From positions 21,394 to 85,393 of the forward strand of contig CANKWR010000003.1 of NCBI GenBank assembly GCA_947487525.1: a stretch of 64,000 nucleotides of DNA, in the 5' to 3' direction. Shown one piece after another: positions 1,234 through 60,802 of the stretch (positions are counted from its first letter, which is position 1; every line of letters begins with the position of its first letter). The stretch is from Bacteroidota bacterium (GTDB lineage Bacteria > Bacteroidota > Bacteroidia > Chitinophagales > Chitinophagaceae). A program made the position numbers and the translations under genes. The notes below the pieces were generated by a model that saw only the letters and a list, made by a program, of their open reading frames with translations, had not been told where the DNA came from and made no database searches.

Positions 1234-3609
1234 ATGAAGAAACTATTGTCTCTCAGTTTTCTTTTATTGAGCACTAGCTCAGTAATTGTTGCGCAAGACA
1301 TTCGCAACAACCCTACCTCAAACCATGGAAACAAGTTTGAACAATTGGGTACTATTTTGCCTACACCGAACGAATACCGAACGGCGAGTGGAGCACCTGG
1401 ACCAAAGTATTGGCAACAACGTGCTGACTATGATATTAAGGCAACCCTTGATGAAAAGAACTTATTATTAACGGGTGCTGAAACGGTTACTTATTTCAAT
1501 AACTCACCTGATGTATTGACTTATTTGTGGTTACAATTGGATGAGAATGAACATAGTTCAACCAAGAATGCCGGTTATCCTGAGGGTAGTTCATTGGGTA
1601 GAGGAATGAGCCCTGCAACCATTGATAAATTGGCAGAAGAAAAAACAGAGAATGGCTTAGGCGTGAATATCAAAAAAGTAACCGATGCCTTGGGCGCCAA
1701 TTTAAAATACACCGTGAATAAAACCATGATGCGTATTGAATTGCCGACTGCATTAAAGCCAGGTCAAAAATTTGCCTTCAAAATAAAATGGGATTATAAA
1801 ATTACCGACCGTATGACAATTGGTGGTCGTGGTGGTTATGAGTATTTCCCAGAAGACGGCAACTATTTATTTACCATGGCACAATGGTTCCCACGTTTAT
1901 GTGTGTACTCTGACTTTCAAGGATGGCAACACCATCAGTTCACAGGAAGAGGAGAGTTTGCCTTAGCTTTTGGAAATTACAAAGTGGCAATCACCGTTCC
2001 TGCTGACCACGTAGTTATGTCTACAGGAGAGTGTAAAAATTATCCAGCGGTATTGAGCCCTGCGCAGTTGGCAAGATGGAATAAAGCACAAACTTCTTAT
2101 ACTGAACCTATTGAAGTAGTTACTTTAGAGGAAGCTAAAAATGCAGAAAAAAATCCGGTAAAAACAACTAAAACTTGGATATTCGATGCTAAAAATGTCC
2201 GTGACTTTGCTTTTGGTAGTAGCCGTAAATTTATATGGGATGCCTTAGCAACCGATGTAGAAGGAAAGAAAGTAATGAGCATGAGTGCTTATGGTAAAGA
2301 AGCTTATGGCTTATACCGTAAGTTTTCTACAAAAGCAGTAGCGCATACTATAAAATCTTATTCTAAGTTTTCTATTCCTTATCCATACCCTGTAGCACAA
2401 AGTATTGAAGCAGCCAATGGGATGGAATATCCAATGATTTGCTTCAACTATGGCCGTACCGAAAAAGACGGTACTTATACAGAAGCAACTAAGAATGGCA
2501 TGTTGGGTGTGGTGATTCACGAAGTGGGTCACAATTTCTTCCCCATGATTGTAAACTCTGATGAGCGTCAATGGTCTTGGATGGACGAGGGATTAAATTC
2601 TTACGTACAATATTTAACACAAGAATTATACGATAATAAATTCCCATCAAGAGGGGGTCCAGCTTGGTCAATCGTAGATTACATGAAGTTACCAAAGGAT
2701 CAATTAGAGCCAATCATGACCAACAGTGAAAACATTATTGGTTTTGGACCTAATGCCTACACAAAGCCAGCAACTGGATTAAATATTTTACGTGAAACCA
2801 TTATGGGTCGTGAATTATTTGATTATTCATTTAAAGAATATGCAAGACGTTGGGCATTTAAACATCCAACACCAGCCGATTTGTTCAGAACAATTGAAGA
2901 TGCAAGTGCGGAGGATTTAGACTGGTTCTGGAGAGGATGGTTTTACAGCATTGATCCTTGTGACATTGCTATTGATACAGTTAAACATGCAGTGTACGAT
3001 GCAACTGCAGCTGCCCCAACGCCTAGAGGTGGTGGAATGCAAAGAAATTTGGACAAGCCTGCGGTGAATGCTTTTGAGGATATCTCCAAAATCAGAAATA
3101 GAGAGGACAAGTCTATCGTGTTCTTAACAGATGTAGATACTACTTTACGTGATTTTTATTGGAGATATGACAGAGGTATTGAGCCTTACGATTCAGAAAC
3201 AAAGCAACCAATGCCAAGCTTTGGCACACCTACTGTTTTAGGAGATGACGAAAAAGCAAAATATGCGAATGCTAATTTGTATGAAATCACTTTCTTAAAC
3301 AAAGGCGGATTGGTAATGCCAATTATTGTTGAATTTACTTTTGCAGATGGCACTAAGGAAACTAAGCGTATCCCTGCTCAAATTTGGAGAAAAAATGAAA
3401 ATAAAGTAACCAAAGTATTTTACACCAATAAAAAAGCAGTGTCTATTAAGTTAGATCCAATGCGTGAAACTGCTGACATTGATGAGACCAATAATAGCTG
3501 GCCTAATTTCACGGAGCCTAGTAAATTCACTTTGTTCAAAACGAAATCAGTTGGTCGTGGTCAATCTTTTGGATTGTCCCCAATGCAAGCTGCAGCAAAC
3601 AAGAAGTAA
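1234..3609 (+). CDS. M1 family metallopeptidase, exported
   Basis: signal peptide; HEVGH...WMDEGLNSYVQ zinc-peptidase motif. Confidence 0.9.
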   Translation: MKKLLSLSFLLLSTSSVIVAQDIRNNPTSNHGNKFEQLGTILPTPNEYRTASGAPGPKYWQQRADYDIKATLDEKNLLLTGAETVTYFNNSPDVLTYLWLQLDENEHSSTKNAGYPEGSSLGRGMSPATIDKLAEEKTENGLGVNIKKVTDALGANLKYTVNKTMMRIELPTALKPGQKFAFKIKWDYKITDRMTIGGRGGYEYFPEDGNYLFTMAQWFPRLCVYSDFQGWQHHQFTGRGEFALAFGNYKVAITVPADHVVMSTGECKNYPAVLSPAQLARWNKAQTSYTEPIEVVTLEEAKNAEKNPVKTTKTWIFDAKNVRDFAFGSSRKFIWDALATDVEGKKVMSMSAYGKEAYGLYRKFSTKAVAHTIKSYSKFSIPYPYPVAQSIEAANGMEYPMICFNYGRTEKDGTYTEATKNGMLGVVIHEVGHNFFPMIVNSDERQWSWMDEGLNSYVQYLTQELYDNKFPSRGGPAWSIVDYMKLPKDQLEPIMTNSENIIGFGPNAYTKPATGLNILRETIMGRELFDYSFKEYARRWAFKHPTPADLFRTIEDASAEDLDWFWRGWFYSIDPCDIAIDTVKHAVYDATAAAPTPRGGGMQRNLDKPAVNAFEDISKIRNREDKSIVFLTDVDTTLRDFYWRYDRGIEPYDSETKQPMPSFGTPTVLGDDEKAKYANANLYEITFLNKGGLVMPIIVEFTFADGTKETKRIPAQIWRKNENKVTKVFYTNKKAVSIKLDPMRETADIDETNNSWPNFTEPSKFTLFKTKSVGRGQSFGLSPMQAAANKK

Positions 3610-4834: not shown

Positions 4835-5542
4835 ATGCGTCAACAAGTATATTTTGAAGATTTAGGGGTTAAATCCTATCAACCTACATGGGATTACCAG
4901 GAGGCGCTATTGGCTGCGAATACGCAAATCAAATCCAAAGCAAGGGAAAAGGAGGAAGATGTGCGCCAAACAGCCACTGAACATCGATTGTTGTTTGTGG
5001 AGCATCCAGCCGTATTTACTTTGGGAAAAAATGGCAAAAGGGAGCATGTTTTGGTTTCGGAGGAACATTTAAATAAGCTGGGGATTGAGTTTTTTCATAT
5101 CAATAGAGGAGGCGATATTACCTATCATGGACCTCAACAAATTGTGGGCTATCCCATTTTAGACTTGGACAAATTTAAAACCGATTTAGGCTGGTATTTA
5201 AGAAGTTTGGAGCAAGTCATTATTGACACGATTGCAGAATATGGGTTGGTTGGACAAAGAAGTGCTGGAGAAACGGGCGTTTGGTTACAACCCGATGATC
5301 CATTTATGGCGCGTAAAATTTGTGCCATGGGCATTAAATGCAGTAGATGGGTTACCATGCATGGCTTTGCATTAAATGTAAATCCAGACCTCTCTCATTT
5401 TGAATACATTGTTCCCTGTGGAATACAAGGGAAAACGGTTACGTCCTTAGAAAAAGAATTAGGGTACAAAGTGAATTATGCGGAAGTGAAAGAGAAAATC
5501 AAAAAACATTTTCAGCGCATTTTTGAAGTCGATTTTATCTAA
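4835..5542 (+). CDS. lipB: lipoyl(octanoyl) transferase LipB
   Basis: HPAVFTLGKNG, RGGDITYHGPQQIVGYPILDL motifs. Confidence 0.93.
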   Translation: MRQQVYFEDLGVKSYQPTWDYQEALLAANTQIKSKAREKEEDVRQTATEHRLLFVEHPAVFTLGKNGKREHVLVSEEHLNKLGIEFFHINRGGDITYHGPQQIVGYPILDLDKFKTDLGWYLRSLEQVIIDTIAEYGLVGQRSAGETGVWLQPDDPFMARKICAMGIKCSRWVTMHGFALNVNPDLSHFEYIVPCGIQGKTVTSLEKELGYKVNYAEVKEKIKKHFQRIFEVDFI

Positions 5543-5586
5543 GGATACAATCGGGTACGCAAATGATTTTTCAAAAATGAATCTTT

Positions 5587-6492
5587 TTAATCAAATGCGA
5601 GTACTCCTTTTTCAAGGGATCTATTTCCTTGTAAACCTCCGCTATGAATAATTAATACTTTACTATTCGGATTAAAATAATTAGCATGCATTAATTGTTC
5701 CACAGCGTAAAATACTTTTCCAGTGTAAACAATGTCAGTAGGGATGGAAGCATGCTCCCACAAGCGGTTCATAAATTCAATTTGCTCGGGCGTTGTTTTT
5801 GCATATCCCCCTTGATGAAATTGATGCAACAAAATAAAGTTTGCATTTTTATCGTCCAACAATTCAGTAATTTCTGTGTGGATCGTGCCTTCGTTTTTTA
5901 AAACAGGGATACCAATTATTTTCTGGTGCTTAGCTACTGCATTGATGATTCCTGCAATCATAGTACCTGTGCCCACTGCACAAATAATATAATCGTATTG
6001 ATGTAATTTGTTTTTTTGATTTATTTCCCAATCGGTAATCATAGTAGAAGCGCCATTAGCACCTAATGGTGAATAGGCGCCCTCGTTAATATAGTATGTT
6101 TTATGATAGACATTTCCGATCATAGGCATAAGTGCATCTTTCTTTTCGTGAAAATGGGTTCTCCCTAAATAAATAATTTCCATACCATAGGCTTTGGCTT
6201 CTTGAATAGTTGGCGTGACAGGTTCGCTTTCATTGCTTCTTACATAACCAATACTTTTAAAACCGTTGAGTTGTGCAGTATATGCAAGGGCAACGAGGTG
6301 ATTAGAATAAGGACCACCAAAACTTGCTATGGTAGTTGCCTGGCTTTTTATCGCTCCTTGTATATAATAGCGCAACTTATACCACTTATTGCCACTTACA
6401 ATTGGATGAATTTGGTCCAGCCTTAAAGTATCAAAGGAAACTTGATTATCGCTTAAATAGGGGATAGGCTCAATGCTTGGACTTGGGTTCAA
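5587..6492 (-). CDS. 1-aminocyclopropane-1-carboxylate deaminase/D-cysteine desulfhydrase-like PLP enzyme
   Basis: GNKWYKLRYY, FGGPYSNHLVALA motifs. Confidence 0.85.
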   Translation of the reverse strand: MNPSPSIEPIPYLSDNQVSFDTLRLDQIHPIVSGNKWYKLRYYIQGAIKSQATTIASFGGPYSNHLVALAYTAQLNGFKSIGYVRSNESEPVTPTIQEAKAYGMEIIYLGRTHFHEKKDALMPMIGNVYHKTYYINEGAYSPLGANGASTMITDWEINQKNKLHQYDYIICAVGTGTMIAGIINAVAKHQKIIGIPVLKNEGTIHTEITELLDDKNANFILLHQFHQGGYAKTTPEQIEFMNRLWEHASIPTDIVYTGKVFYAVEQLMHANYFNPNSKVLIIHSGGLQGNRSLEKGVLAFD

Positions 6493-6555
6493 TCTGTTTA
6501 TTTTTAATGAAAATCAGCTATTTTTGTAACCAGTATTTTACAATAAGTAAAAGTA

Positions 6556-7458
6556 ATGAGTGCACCTACATTAGTGATTTTAGCAGCGGGCATGGCAAGT
6601 AGATATGGTAGTCAAAAGCAAACGGAAGGGTTTGGTCCCAATGGGGAAACCATTATGGACTATTCAATTTATGATGCGATAAGAGCTGGATTTGGCAAAG
6701 TGGTTTTCATTATTAGAGAAGACTTTAGCGAAGCTTTTAAGGCAAGTTTTGAGCCAAAACTAAAAGGCAAAGTAGCCACCAAATATGTTTTTCAAGCCTT
6801 GGATAAGTTTACGGAGGGGAAACAAATCAACCCCGATCGAATAAAGCCTTGGGGGACTGCCCATGCTGTATTGTGCACAAAAGGTATCGTGAATGAACCC
6901 TTTGCCGTAATTAATGCGGACGATTACTATGGAGCTGAGGCATTTGTGCAGGCGTATCAATTTTTAACGAAGGAATGCAATGACCAAACCTATTGTATTT
7001 TAGGGTATGAGCTATCAAATACCTTAAGTGAAAATGGAACCGTGAGTAGAGGTGTGTGTAGTGTAGATGAAAACAATACTTTGACAAAAATTGTTGAGCG
7101 CACAAAAATTTATAGAAAAGAAGGGGGTATCGTATTTGAAGAAGAGGGTATTGAAAGCCCATTGAAGGAAGACACTAGAGTGAGTATGAATTTCATGTGC
7201 TTTGCGCCTAATTTTATTGATTTTTGTGAGCAAGAGTTTGATCTTTTTTTAGAAAAACAAGGGCAAGCATTAAAATCAGAATTTTACATTCCTTATGTTG
7301 CCGGTCAATTTTCTAATTTAGGATTAGGGGTTGTTAAAGTAATTGCTACCAATGCAAAATGGTTTGGGGTTACGTATAAAGAGGACGCTCCAATGGTAAA
7401 GGCCAATATTAATGCACTTGTTGCTGGCCATATTTATCCTGCCAACTTATGGAGTTAA
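6556..7458 (+). CDS. sugar-phosphate nucleotidyltransferase-like protein
   Basis: LAAGMASRYGSQKQTEGFGPNGE and NADDYYG motifs. Confidence 0.85.
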   Translation: MSAPTLVILAAGMASRYGSQKQTEGFGPNGETIMDYSIYDAIRAGFGKVVFIIREDFSEAFKASFEPKLKGKVATKYVFQALDKFTEGKQINPDRIKPWGTAHAVLCTKGIVNEPFAVINADDYYGAEAFVQAYQFLTKECNDQTYCILGYELSNTLSENGTVSRGVCSVDENNTLTKIVERTKIYRKEGGIVFEEEGIESPLKEDTRVSMNFMCFAPNFIDFCEQEFDLFLEKQGQALKSEFYIPYVAGQFSNLGLGVVKVIATNAKWFGVTYKEDAPMVKANINALVAGHIYPANLWS

Positions 7459-46887: not shown

Positions 46888-47298
46888 ATGACAAAAACAC
46901 TTAGTATATTAATTGGATTGATGCTTTGTTATGGCCCTAATTTAAATGCCCAAAGTAAAATAAATACAAGCAGTAGCAATTTTAAAATATACAATATTGG
47001 TAATTATCAAATCAAGTACGCAAAAGGTGCAAAATTAGATTGGGGGCAAGCGTATGATTTAATAGAAAAATCAGAGAAATCAAATGTGAATGACTGGAGA
47101 TTGCCGACAGTGGAAGAATTGAAAGAAATATATTTTGATAGGCAAAGTATTGGAATTAGTAGTGGAACGTTTTGGAGTGCAACTTTAAGTGGACCATTGA
47201 GAATGGGTTTTATTAACTGTATAGATTTTGCAAAAGGGGAAGAGTTTATACTAAATGAAGGTAAATGTTTTTATCTTCTTGTAAAACACGGCAAATAG
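46888..47298 (+). CDS. DUF1566/Lcl-like exported protein
   Basis: WRLPTVEELKEIY...FWSATL motif. Confidence 0.65.
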   Translation: MTKTLSILIGLMLCYGPNLNAQSKINTSSSNFKIYNIGNYQIKYAKGAKLDWGQAYDLIEKSEKSNVNDWRLPTVEELKEIYFDRQSIGISSGTFWSATLSGPLRMGFINCIDFAKGEEFILNEGKCFYLLVKHGK

Positions 47299-47322
47299 TA
47301 TAAAATCCTTAAAAGTTTTTTT

Positions 47323-47712
47323 ATGAAATGCTTGATAATAATATTATTTATATTAATAAGTAATCTTCTTTATTCACAGAATAAGAAGAATATAGGAAAT
47401 GTTAATGCAGATGAAATTAAGGTAGGCGACTTAATAGTTAAAAGACATGATGCTGGGAAAATGAGTTGGGATGACGCCATAATTACTTGTGAAAAAATTG
47501 GAGAAGGCTGGCGTTTGCCAACCAAACAAGAAATGGCAGTTCTTTATAAGAAAAAGGAAGTAATTGGAGGTTTCGAAAAAGATGGATATTGGAGTGGTTT
47601 TTCAATTGATGGACATTTGGCATTCGTTCAATCCTTTTATAAAAATATTAATGGCCCAAATGCAAAACATGATTTATTATTTGTAAGACCGGTAAAGAGT
47701 TTAAGTAAATAA
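47323..47712 (+). CDS. DUF1566/Lcl-like exported protein
   Basis: WRLPTKQEMAVLY...YWSGF...FVRPVK motif. Confidence 0.7.
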   Translation: MKCLIIILFILISNLLYSQNKKNIGNVNADEIKVGDLIVKRHDAGKMSWDDAIITCEKIGEGWRLPTKQEMAVLYKKKEVIGGFEKDGYWSGFSIDGHLAFVQSFYKNINGPNAKHDLLFVRPVKSLSK

Positions 47713-59158: not shown

Positions 59159-59563
59159 ATGAAAAAAATATTTTTTCTTTTAGTGTTATCATTTAGCATT
59201 ACAACACTATTCGCTCAATCTCAATCTGAGATGAATATGGAGGCTTCTAATAGCTATAAAAAAGTGGATGATCAACTTGGTGCAGTTTATCAAGTTATTT
59301 TAAAAAAATATGCTAAAAACGTTAAGTTTATTAATGCACTAAGGGCGTCTGAAAGATTATGGATTCAATTCAGAGATGCCGAACTTAAAATGTTGTATCC
59401 TTCCGATAATCCAAGAATGAGTTATGGTAGCATGTATACAATGTTATACTATGGGCGTCTTGAGGAGTTGACTAAGGCGAGAATTAAGCAGCTACAAATT
59501 TGGGCATATCCAAAAGAGGAGGATAGGGATGGAAGTATTGGAGATTTTGATGGGGAGTATTAA
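59159..59563 (+). CDS. LprI/DUF1311 family exported protein
   Basis: LGAVYQVILKKYAKN...LRASERLWIQFRDAE. Confidence 0.8.
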   Translation: MKKIFFLLVLSFSITTLFAQSQSEMNMEASNSYKKVDDQLGAVYQVILKKYAKNVKFINALRASERLWIQFRDAELKMLYPSDNPRMSYGSMYTMLYYGRLEELTKARIKQLQIWAYPKEEDRDGSIGDFDGEY

Positions 59564-59954: not shown

Positions 59955-60422
59955 ATGAAAAAGTTATTAATTATTCCAATGTTATTTGCCTGTTTATTAG
60001 GTATTGGGCAAGCAGCAGTTTCGCCATCTAAATCAGCAGGAGGGGCTACGCATACAATTAGCGAAACATTTGGAGGAGGAATTGTGTTTTATGTTACAAC
60101 CGATGGCTTACATGGTTTAATTGCAGAAACAGTAGATCAATCTACCAGTAGCACATGGTATAATGCACAAGATGTTATTAGTAATCCAGCTAATCATTCT
60201 GCTCGAGGTAAATTATTTACTGATTGGAGATTGCCTACCAAATATGAGTTAAATTTGATGTACATTGCTAGATCAACTATTGGGGGTTTTGCGACTAACA
60301 CCTATTGGAGTTCTACGGAGAACGTCAACTCCTACGCGTGGTTCCAGGTTTTCTACGATGGCTATCAGACCAGCGACGATAAGGGCATCCACATCTCTGT
60401 TCGCGCCATTAGGGCTTTTTAA
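59955..60422 (+). CDS. DGR target protein: exported DUF1566/C-type-lectin-like protein with hypervariable C-terminus
   Basis: signal peptide; GGGIVFYVTTDGLHGLIAETVDQS; WRLPTKYELNLMY; C-terminal YWSSTEN...SVRAIRAF. Confidence 0.85.
   Translation: MKKLLIIPMLFACLLGIGQAAVSPSKSAGGATHTISETFGGGIVFYVTTDGLHGLIAETVDQSTSSTWYNAQDVISNPANHSARGKLFTDWRLPTKYELNLMYIARSTIGGFATNTYWSSTENVNSYAWFQVFYDGYQTSDDKGIHISVRAIRAF
60312..60419 (+). other. DGR variable region (VR)
   Basis: about 51% GC by hand count in AT-rich surroundings; about 16 codons of NNY type at positions typical of AAY in a template repeat; constant codons (GCG TGG, CAG, GGC, CAG, AAG) and constant end TCTGTTCGCGCCATTAGGGCTTTT. Confidence 0.85.
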
Positions 60423-60481
60423 CTATTTAACATTTTATAGAGTCCTTATTTCGAAAGTATTTTTAAACTGAGATTATTTTG

Positions 60482-60511
60482 AACCATCCTCCTAAACGAG
60501 GGTGGTTTTTT
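60482..60511 (+). terminator. terminator / hairpin downstream of VR gene
   Basis: AACCATCCTC-ctaaac-GAGGGTGGTT then T-run. Confidence 0.75.
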
Positions 60512-60726: not shown

Positions 60727-60802
60727 TGGTGATCCCGCTGGGACTCGAACCCAGGACCCATACATTAAAAGTGTATTGCTCTACCAACTGAGCTACAGAA
60801 TC
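60727..60802 (-). tRNA. tRNA-Lys (anticodon TTT), encoded CCA
   Basis: reverse complement GATTCTGTAGCTCAGTTGGTAGAGCAATACACTTTTAATGTATGGGTCCTGGGTTCGAGTCCCAGCGGGATCACCA folds as a cloverleaf. Confidence 0.97.

Follow-up and report, generated by a model that had tools for sequence, protein, structure and literature searches.

A probable orphan variable region of a diversity-generating retroelement at the 3' end of an exported lectin-like gene in a freshwater bacterium

Cyanobacterial diversity-generating retroelements (DGRs) have remote variable proteins, in which a variable region (VR) ends a C-type-lectin-like (CLec) gene far from the reverse transcriptase (RT) (PMC7517822), and a large DGR survey reported that a search centred on the RT misses remote targets (PMC8144416). 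The gene described here lies in a 64-kb stretch of DNA (the window) and shares with the cyanobacterial cases a 3'-terminal CLec VR distant from any RT. The cyanobacterial VRs, however, were assigned to a DGR present in the same genome, whereas none was found in the genome of the window or in its VR-carrying congeners.

Closer at hand are complete cassettes with the order VR-hairpin-avd-template repeat (TR)-RT, which we found at L266 (G293:C14, from another genus of the same family) and at L142. As in the window, the variable protein has an Lcl_C domain; the cassette protein ends in VRAVRAF and is followed by a TAAC.ATTTAACTATTT stretch, a hairpin, bAvd, an adenine-rich TR and an RT with CGLPIGNLTSQ/SSQ. 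The variable protein and hairpin of L266 lie on the minus strand, as do its remaining parts:

L266, 1771-2112, minus strand: avd
L266, about 1448-1600, minus strand: TR
L266, 163-1353, minus strand: RT

In contrast, the window holds the VR gene alone, and its constant 3' end reads ATTAGGGC where the cassettes have GTTCGGGC. No RT, TR or avd was seen in the 64 kb, as the first-pass annotation of this DNA had reported. The fold family is also that of the C-terminal domain of the Legionella collagen-like protein (8Q4E, chain label HbP1 in the PDB file), a DUF1566 domain that its authors call C-type-lectin-like (PMC11162425). The Legionella protein is a trimeric adhesin with collagen repeats, whereas the protein from the window lacks a collagen region and finishes in a variable part of the DGR type. 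The features of the locus are as follows:

59955..60422, plus strand: Lcl_C/DUF1566 (C-type-lectin-like) probable DGR variable protein, 155 aa, exported (ORF, Pfam, phmmer)
59955..60014, plus strand: probable signal peptide MKKLLIIPMLFACLLGIGQA, as read from the translation
60287..60302, plus strand: probable 5' border of the VR (GGTTTTGCG and variable codons), found also in the VRs of relatives and in genuine TRs (L266, L142 and L130)
60303..60419, plus strand: probable DGR variable region, 39 codons (117 bp), with 23/47 inferred TR adenines and 1/70 other sites changed
60321..60398, plus strand: core with 18 adenine-diversified codons (residues 123-147)
60399..60419, plus strand: constant 3' end GTTCGCGCCATTAGGGCTTTT, at the putative initiation-of-mutagenic-homing (IMH) position
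60420..60431, plus strand: TAACTATTTAAC, remnant of the conserved stretch that leads to the post-VR hairpin in intact DGRs
60482..60511, plus strand: terminator-like inverted repeat with a T-run, seen directly

Pfam Lcl_C (DUF1566) covers residues 48-153 of the 155-aa protein (E 9.5e-12), and phmmer aligns the protein with the Lcl-CTD structure 8q4e over 126 residues (E 5e-29); its AlphaFold model was poor (mean pLDDT 50.6). The host is a freshwater bacterium with many DUF1566 paralogs in its genome. Two adjacent small exported DUF1566-like genes at 46888-47712 of the window lack a VR signature. An exported LprI-family (lysozyme inhibitor-like) protein is encoded at 59159-59563, in an AT-rich stretch 5' of the VR gene, and tRNA-Lys at 60727-60802 is near it.

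We read the 3' end of the Lcl_C gene as a DGR variable region of the orphan or remote-target kind, with a probability of roughly 0.8. Much of what the first-pass annotation had said of this gene could be confirmed. The bases that it quoted occupy 60312-60419 in frame, the last part of the ORF 59955-60422, and the Lcl_C match together with the adenine-confined changes described below bears out its assignment of a DGR VR to the end of an exported DUF1566/C-type-lectin-like gene. The AT-rich 5' part and GC-balanced end that it described were also found (GC 0.364 in 59955-60300 and 0.504 in 60303-60419); just 0.6% of 117-nt stretches within the window are as GC-rich as the latter. The VR runs to the stop codon of the gene; its start is probably somewhat upstream of the proposed 60312, at ~60287. 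Most relatives have GGTTTTGCG and three variable codons 5' of TATTGG, and ~60287 is the equivalent place in the window. Downstream, the window retains only the first 12 bases of the post-VR AT stretch, and no stable fold was found in the 60 nt 3' of its VR. A post-VR hairpin or cruciform is present in the intact cassettes and in two congeners (G144 and G134); lacking it, the window VR may no longer be a good target.

The VR family was examined in 147 genomes of the genus, comprising that of the window and 146 sister species. When up to two mismatches are allowed, 13 of the 147, the window's genome included, have the constant end GTTCGCGCCATTAGGGCTTTT, and VR-like sequence stands upstream of it in 12; the VR family was found in 12/147 congeneric genomes and in one phage. 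The constant VRAIRAF end proposed by the first-pass annotation corresponds to a 21-mer common to congeners and phage. At L086 (G011:C163), the constant 21-mer and the downstream stretch are intact and the upstream VR core is unlike the family. In a codon alignment of the VRs, TATTGGAGTTCTACGGAG, GCGTGG, CAG, TTC, GGC, CAG, AAG and the 3' end are constant, and variation falls at positions 1 and 2 of codons ending in C or T, a pattern explained by a template of AAC/AAT codons. From these VRs and the TRs of other bacteria we infer a template that would read GCGTGGAACCAGAATTTCAACAATGGCAATCAGAACAACAACAATAAGAACAACAMNAACTATGTTCGCGCCATTAGG, and the TR core predicted earlier is close both to it and to genuine TRs. 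The AAY-derived codon pattern in the window VR is beyond chance.

Against the inferred TR, the window VR is changed at almost half of the adenines and at a single other site (23/47 and 1/70). Because this template was derived partly from the VRs themselves, which introduces circularity, the window was also compared with 19 TRs from other genomes, for 16 of which a DGR-type RT lies in the fetched stretch and for one (L115) elsewhere on the contig. It differs from them at 19/36 sites where A is conserved and at 3/53 conserved non-A sites (Fisher p=5e-7), in agreement with the earlier expectation that mismatches would be confined to template adenines. The distribution over codon positions is equally distinctive. 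The window VR and that of G144 differ at 27 bases in codon positions 1-2 and at 1 base in position 3, whereas for LpdA, which is encoded ~2 kb downstream in the window and served as the gauge of species divergence, the corresponding counts are 62 and 185 (p=6e-14 versus the VR pattern). At four-fold sites of LpdA, the window species differs from the VR carriers by 0.43-0.72, and fresh-VR species differ among themselves by ~0.53.

Other VRs of the family are similarly fresh. The two VRs of G144, that of G060 and that of the phage contig L105 depart from the inferred TR at 21-26/47 adenines and at 0/70 other sites; the VR at G134:C128 is changed at 23 adenines and at 2 other sites, both inside the constant end. 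The identity of the non-A bases across diverged species and phage shows recent copying from one template, and since the A-site pattern differs from one fresh VR to the next, these are separate copying products of that template, not one transferred VR. Judged from these patterns, the last rewriting of the window VR is recent on an evolutionary scale, and the copying very recent relative to species divergence. More drifted members of the family carry non-adenine changes at 4/70 (G160), 4/70 (G123), 7/70 (G093), 11/70 (G110) and 18/70 (G134b) sites. A second VR in the window's own genome (L037:8951-9100; G000:C14, minus strand) has non-adenine drift in its constant end and sits in an ORF frameshifted just 5' of the VR.

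Variation between relatives was seen at a locus other than that of the window, in the congeneric syntenic pair G144:C7 and G160:C118/C14. Here the downstream sequence is 98.7% identical (1493 bp) and the upstream sequence 91% (800 bp), and the VRs differ at 26/117 bases (78% identical), 21 of the 26 at codon positions 1-2. The ~55 bp directly 5' of the VR are diverged as well, so the exchanged tract may exceed the VR; either recombination or a long conversion tract would fit. The two G160 contigs, C14 and C118 (L074/L075), end and start inside one VR and overlap there by 129 identical bp, the assembly being broken at the VR.

The family extends to phages. On the viral contigs L105 (117.6 kb) and L106 (65.6 kb), which are almost the same in sequence, a VR that belongs exactly to the window's family, with GTTCGCGCCATTAGGGCTTTT exact, forms the end of a protein that combines an Lcl_C domain with a low-complexity, ST-rich stretch. 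Related VR families occur on ~18 further viral contigs, and L158 and L163 have one identical VR in common on flanks that are ~90% identical. No RVT_1 match was found in 22 VR-bearing phage records, many of them fragments. One viral record, L157 (IMGVR_UViG_3300020185_004330), holds at 5074-6778 five tandem 107-108-aa Lcl_C genes with a 344-347 bp period, each with a DGR-like VR; its 88 kb contain no RVT_1.

From the pattern of changes we infer retrohoming at the window VR. A DGR RT would copy an adenine-rich template RNA with misincorporation at adenines, and the mutated cDNA would replace the end of the lectin gene. The product would be a secreted protein whose constant scaffold bears as many as 18 randomised residues, with the variable surface as a putative ligand-binding site.

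A TR beside a DGR RT elsewhere in the genome had been predicted for this gene. Neither was found: the window's assembly has no RVT_1 match (E<=1), and the search of this genome for TR and RT returned only the window VR and the decayed VR on C14. The assembly is 88.5% complete in 83 contigs, so this absence is not final. In the available assemblies the VR-carrying sister species likewise lack the TR/RT machinery, with no RVT_1 in any other VR-carrying genome of the genus, and none of the 16 genus genomes with a real RVT_1 match has a VR of the window's family. Against the DGR RT profile, none of the RT loci fetched from the genus exceeds 151 bits, compared with 760-790 for real DGR RTs. Two congeneric candidates, L048 and L051, were rejected as DGR RTs; they are of the GNYLSQ type, and their low scores (151 and 143 bits) place them in another RT group.

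The search for the template gave a similar result. No matching TR was detected in the window's genome or the 146 congeners by pattern (<=2 mismatches) or BLAST, the best BLAST matches to the predicted TR in the 147 genomes being VRs, at most 81% identical. Among 85,462 named genomes scanned for the TR core, which yielded many complete DGRs from other phyla and genera, there was no TR with the ATTAGGGC end; the sole congeneric match (L119 = G144) proved to be a VR. TR-like sequence was seen at L118 (CAJXLK010000021.1), from a Bacteroidetes MAG; no RVT_1 was found in that genome. The phage and plasmid records and viral contigs scanned held no TR of the matching type, although the viral scans do recover RT-linked TRs of other phages and the approach is thus able to find TRs. 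With TR and RT sought and not found, the window gene can be filed as a DGR-type VR but not as a member of a DGR system. The earlier proposal of a remote (trans) target stands as to the DGR-type VR; a working target of a DGR in the window's genome is at most a possibility.

We tentatively favor, at slightly below even odds, a supply of the machinery in trans from an accessory element (a phage, a plasmid or a minority strain), because several species and a phage have fresh VRs and all of them lack the machinery. Apparent relic loci show that the machinery is also lost. Downstream of the VR, both G144 and G134 retain the AT stretch and hairpin of the intact cassettes and, after these, only the first half of avd; the truncated bAvd of G144 matches Pfam bAvd at 1.7e-8 (profile 7-55 of 107), and in G134 the avd is decayed or truncated and the sequence runs on beyond it. 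These loci look like a VR-hairpin-avd-TR-RT cassette after deletion. They bring up a possible though rather unlikely explanation, in which a cis DGR once existed in the lineage, TR and RT were deleted, and the VR is its last product. The non-adenine drift in several VRs (notably those of G110 and G134b), the frameshifted second VR of the window's genome and the hairpin lost at the window VR are all consistent with such a recent fossil. However, the freshest VRs have changes at only 0-1/70 non-adenine sites, which would require recent and separate losses in several species and a phage, and the machinery was caught before its loss in 0/147 genomes.

We consider it somewhat more doubtful still that a TR/RT cassette is present and was missed, unbinned, when contigs broke at VR-like repeats. 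The incompleteness of the window's assembly and the G160 contigs that break exactly at a VR could be explained in this way, but comparably fragmented Bacteroidota assemblies do contain RT contigs (L142, L130 and L266). Moreover, all VR carriers lack an RT, including those with assemblies 94-100% complete (G144, G134 and G110), and the G134 sequence runs past the broken avd.

The spread of VR diversity by horizontal transfer or gene conversion among bacterial and phage genes, with no active RT in the lineage, is improbable. It would account for a VR family common to phages, for the identical VR of L158 and L163 and for a diverged tract longer than the VR in G144/G160; fresh VRs nevertheless differ in their adenine-site patterns and agree at non-adenine bases, which calls for new mutagenesis from a template and not only shuffling. 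Finally, an ordinary fast-evolving lectin gene under positive selection without any retroelement, which the numerous DUF1566 paralogs of the genome might suggest, is ruled out for practical purposes by the adenine and codon-position tests, since the differences cluster at positions 1-2 of template-adenine codons and hardly ever fall at position 3, opposite to what a normal gene shows.

Returning to supply in trans, a broader version of it, which we regard as unlikely, is that a third, mobile element carries a DGR which rewrites, in trans and across genomes, families of RT-less DGR targets maintained by the genus and its phages. In the literature searched we found no description of RT-less target families common to a bacterial genus and phages. 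If this version were true, targets and machinery would be separable, and phage adhesins and host lectins would use the same template. Here a target gene can be recognised from its own signature, even where the genome or phage has no detectable RT. If such genes are still rewritten, hypermutation would extend to organisms thought to lack it, and phage adhesins and bacterial lectins may share a template. The system is testable, since nearly every base of the missing TR is predicted.
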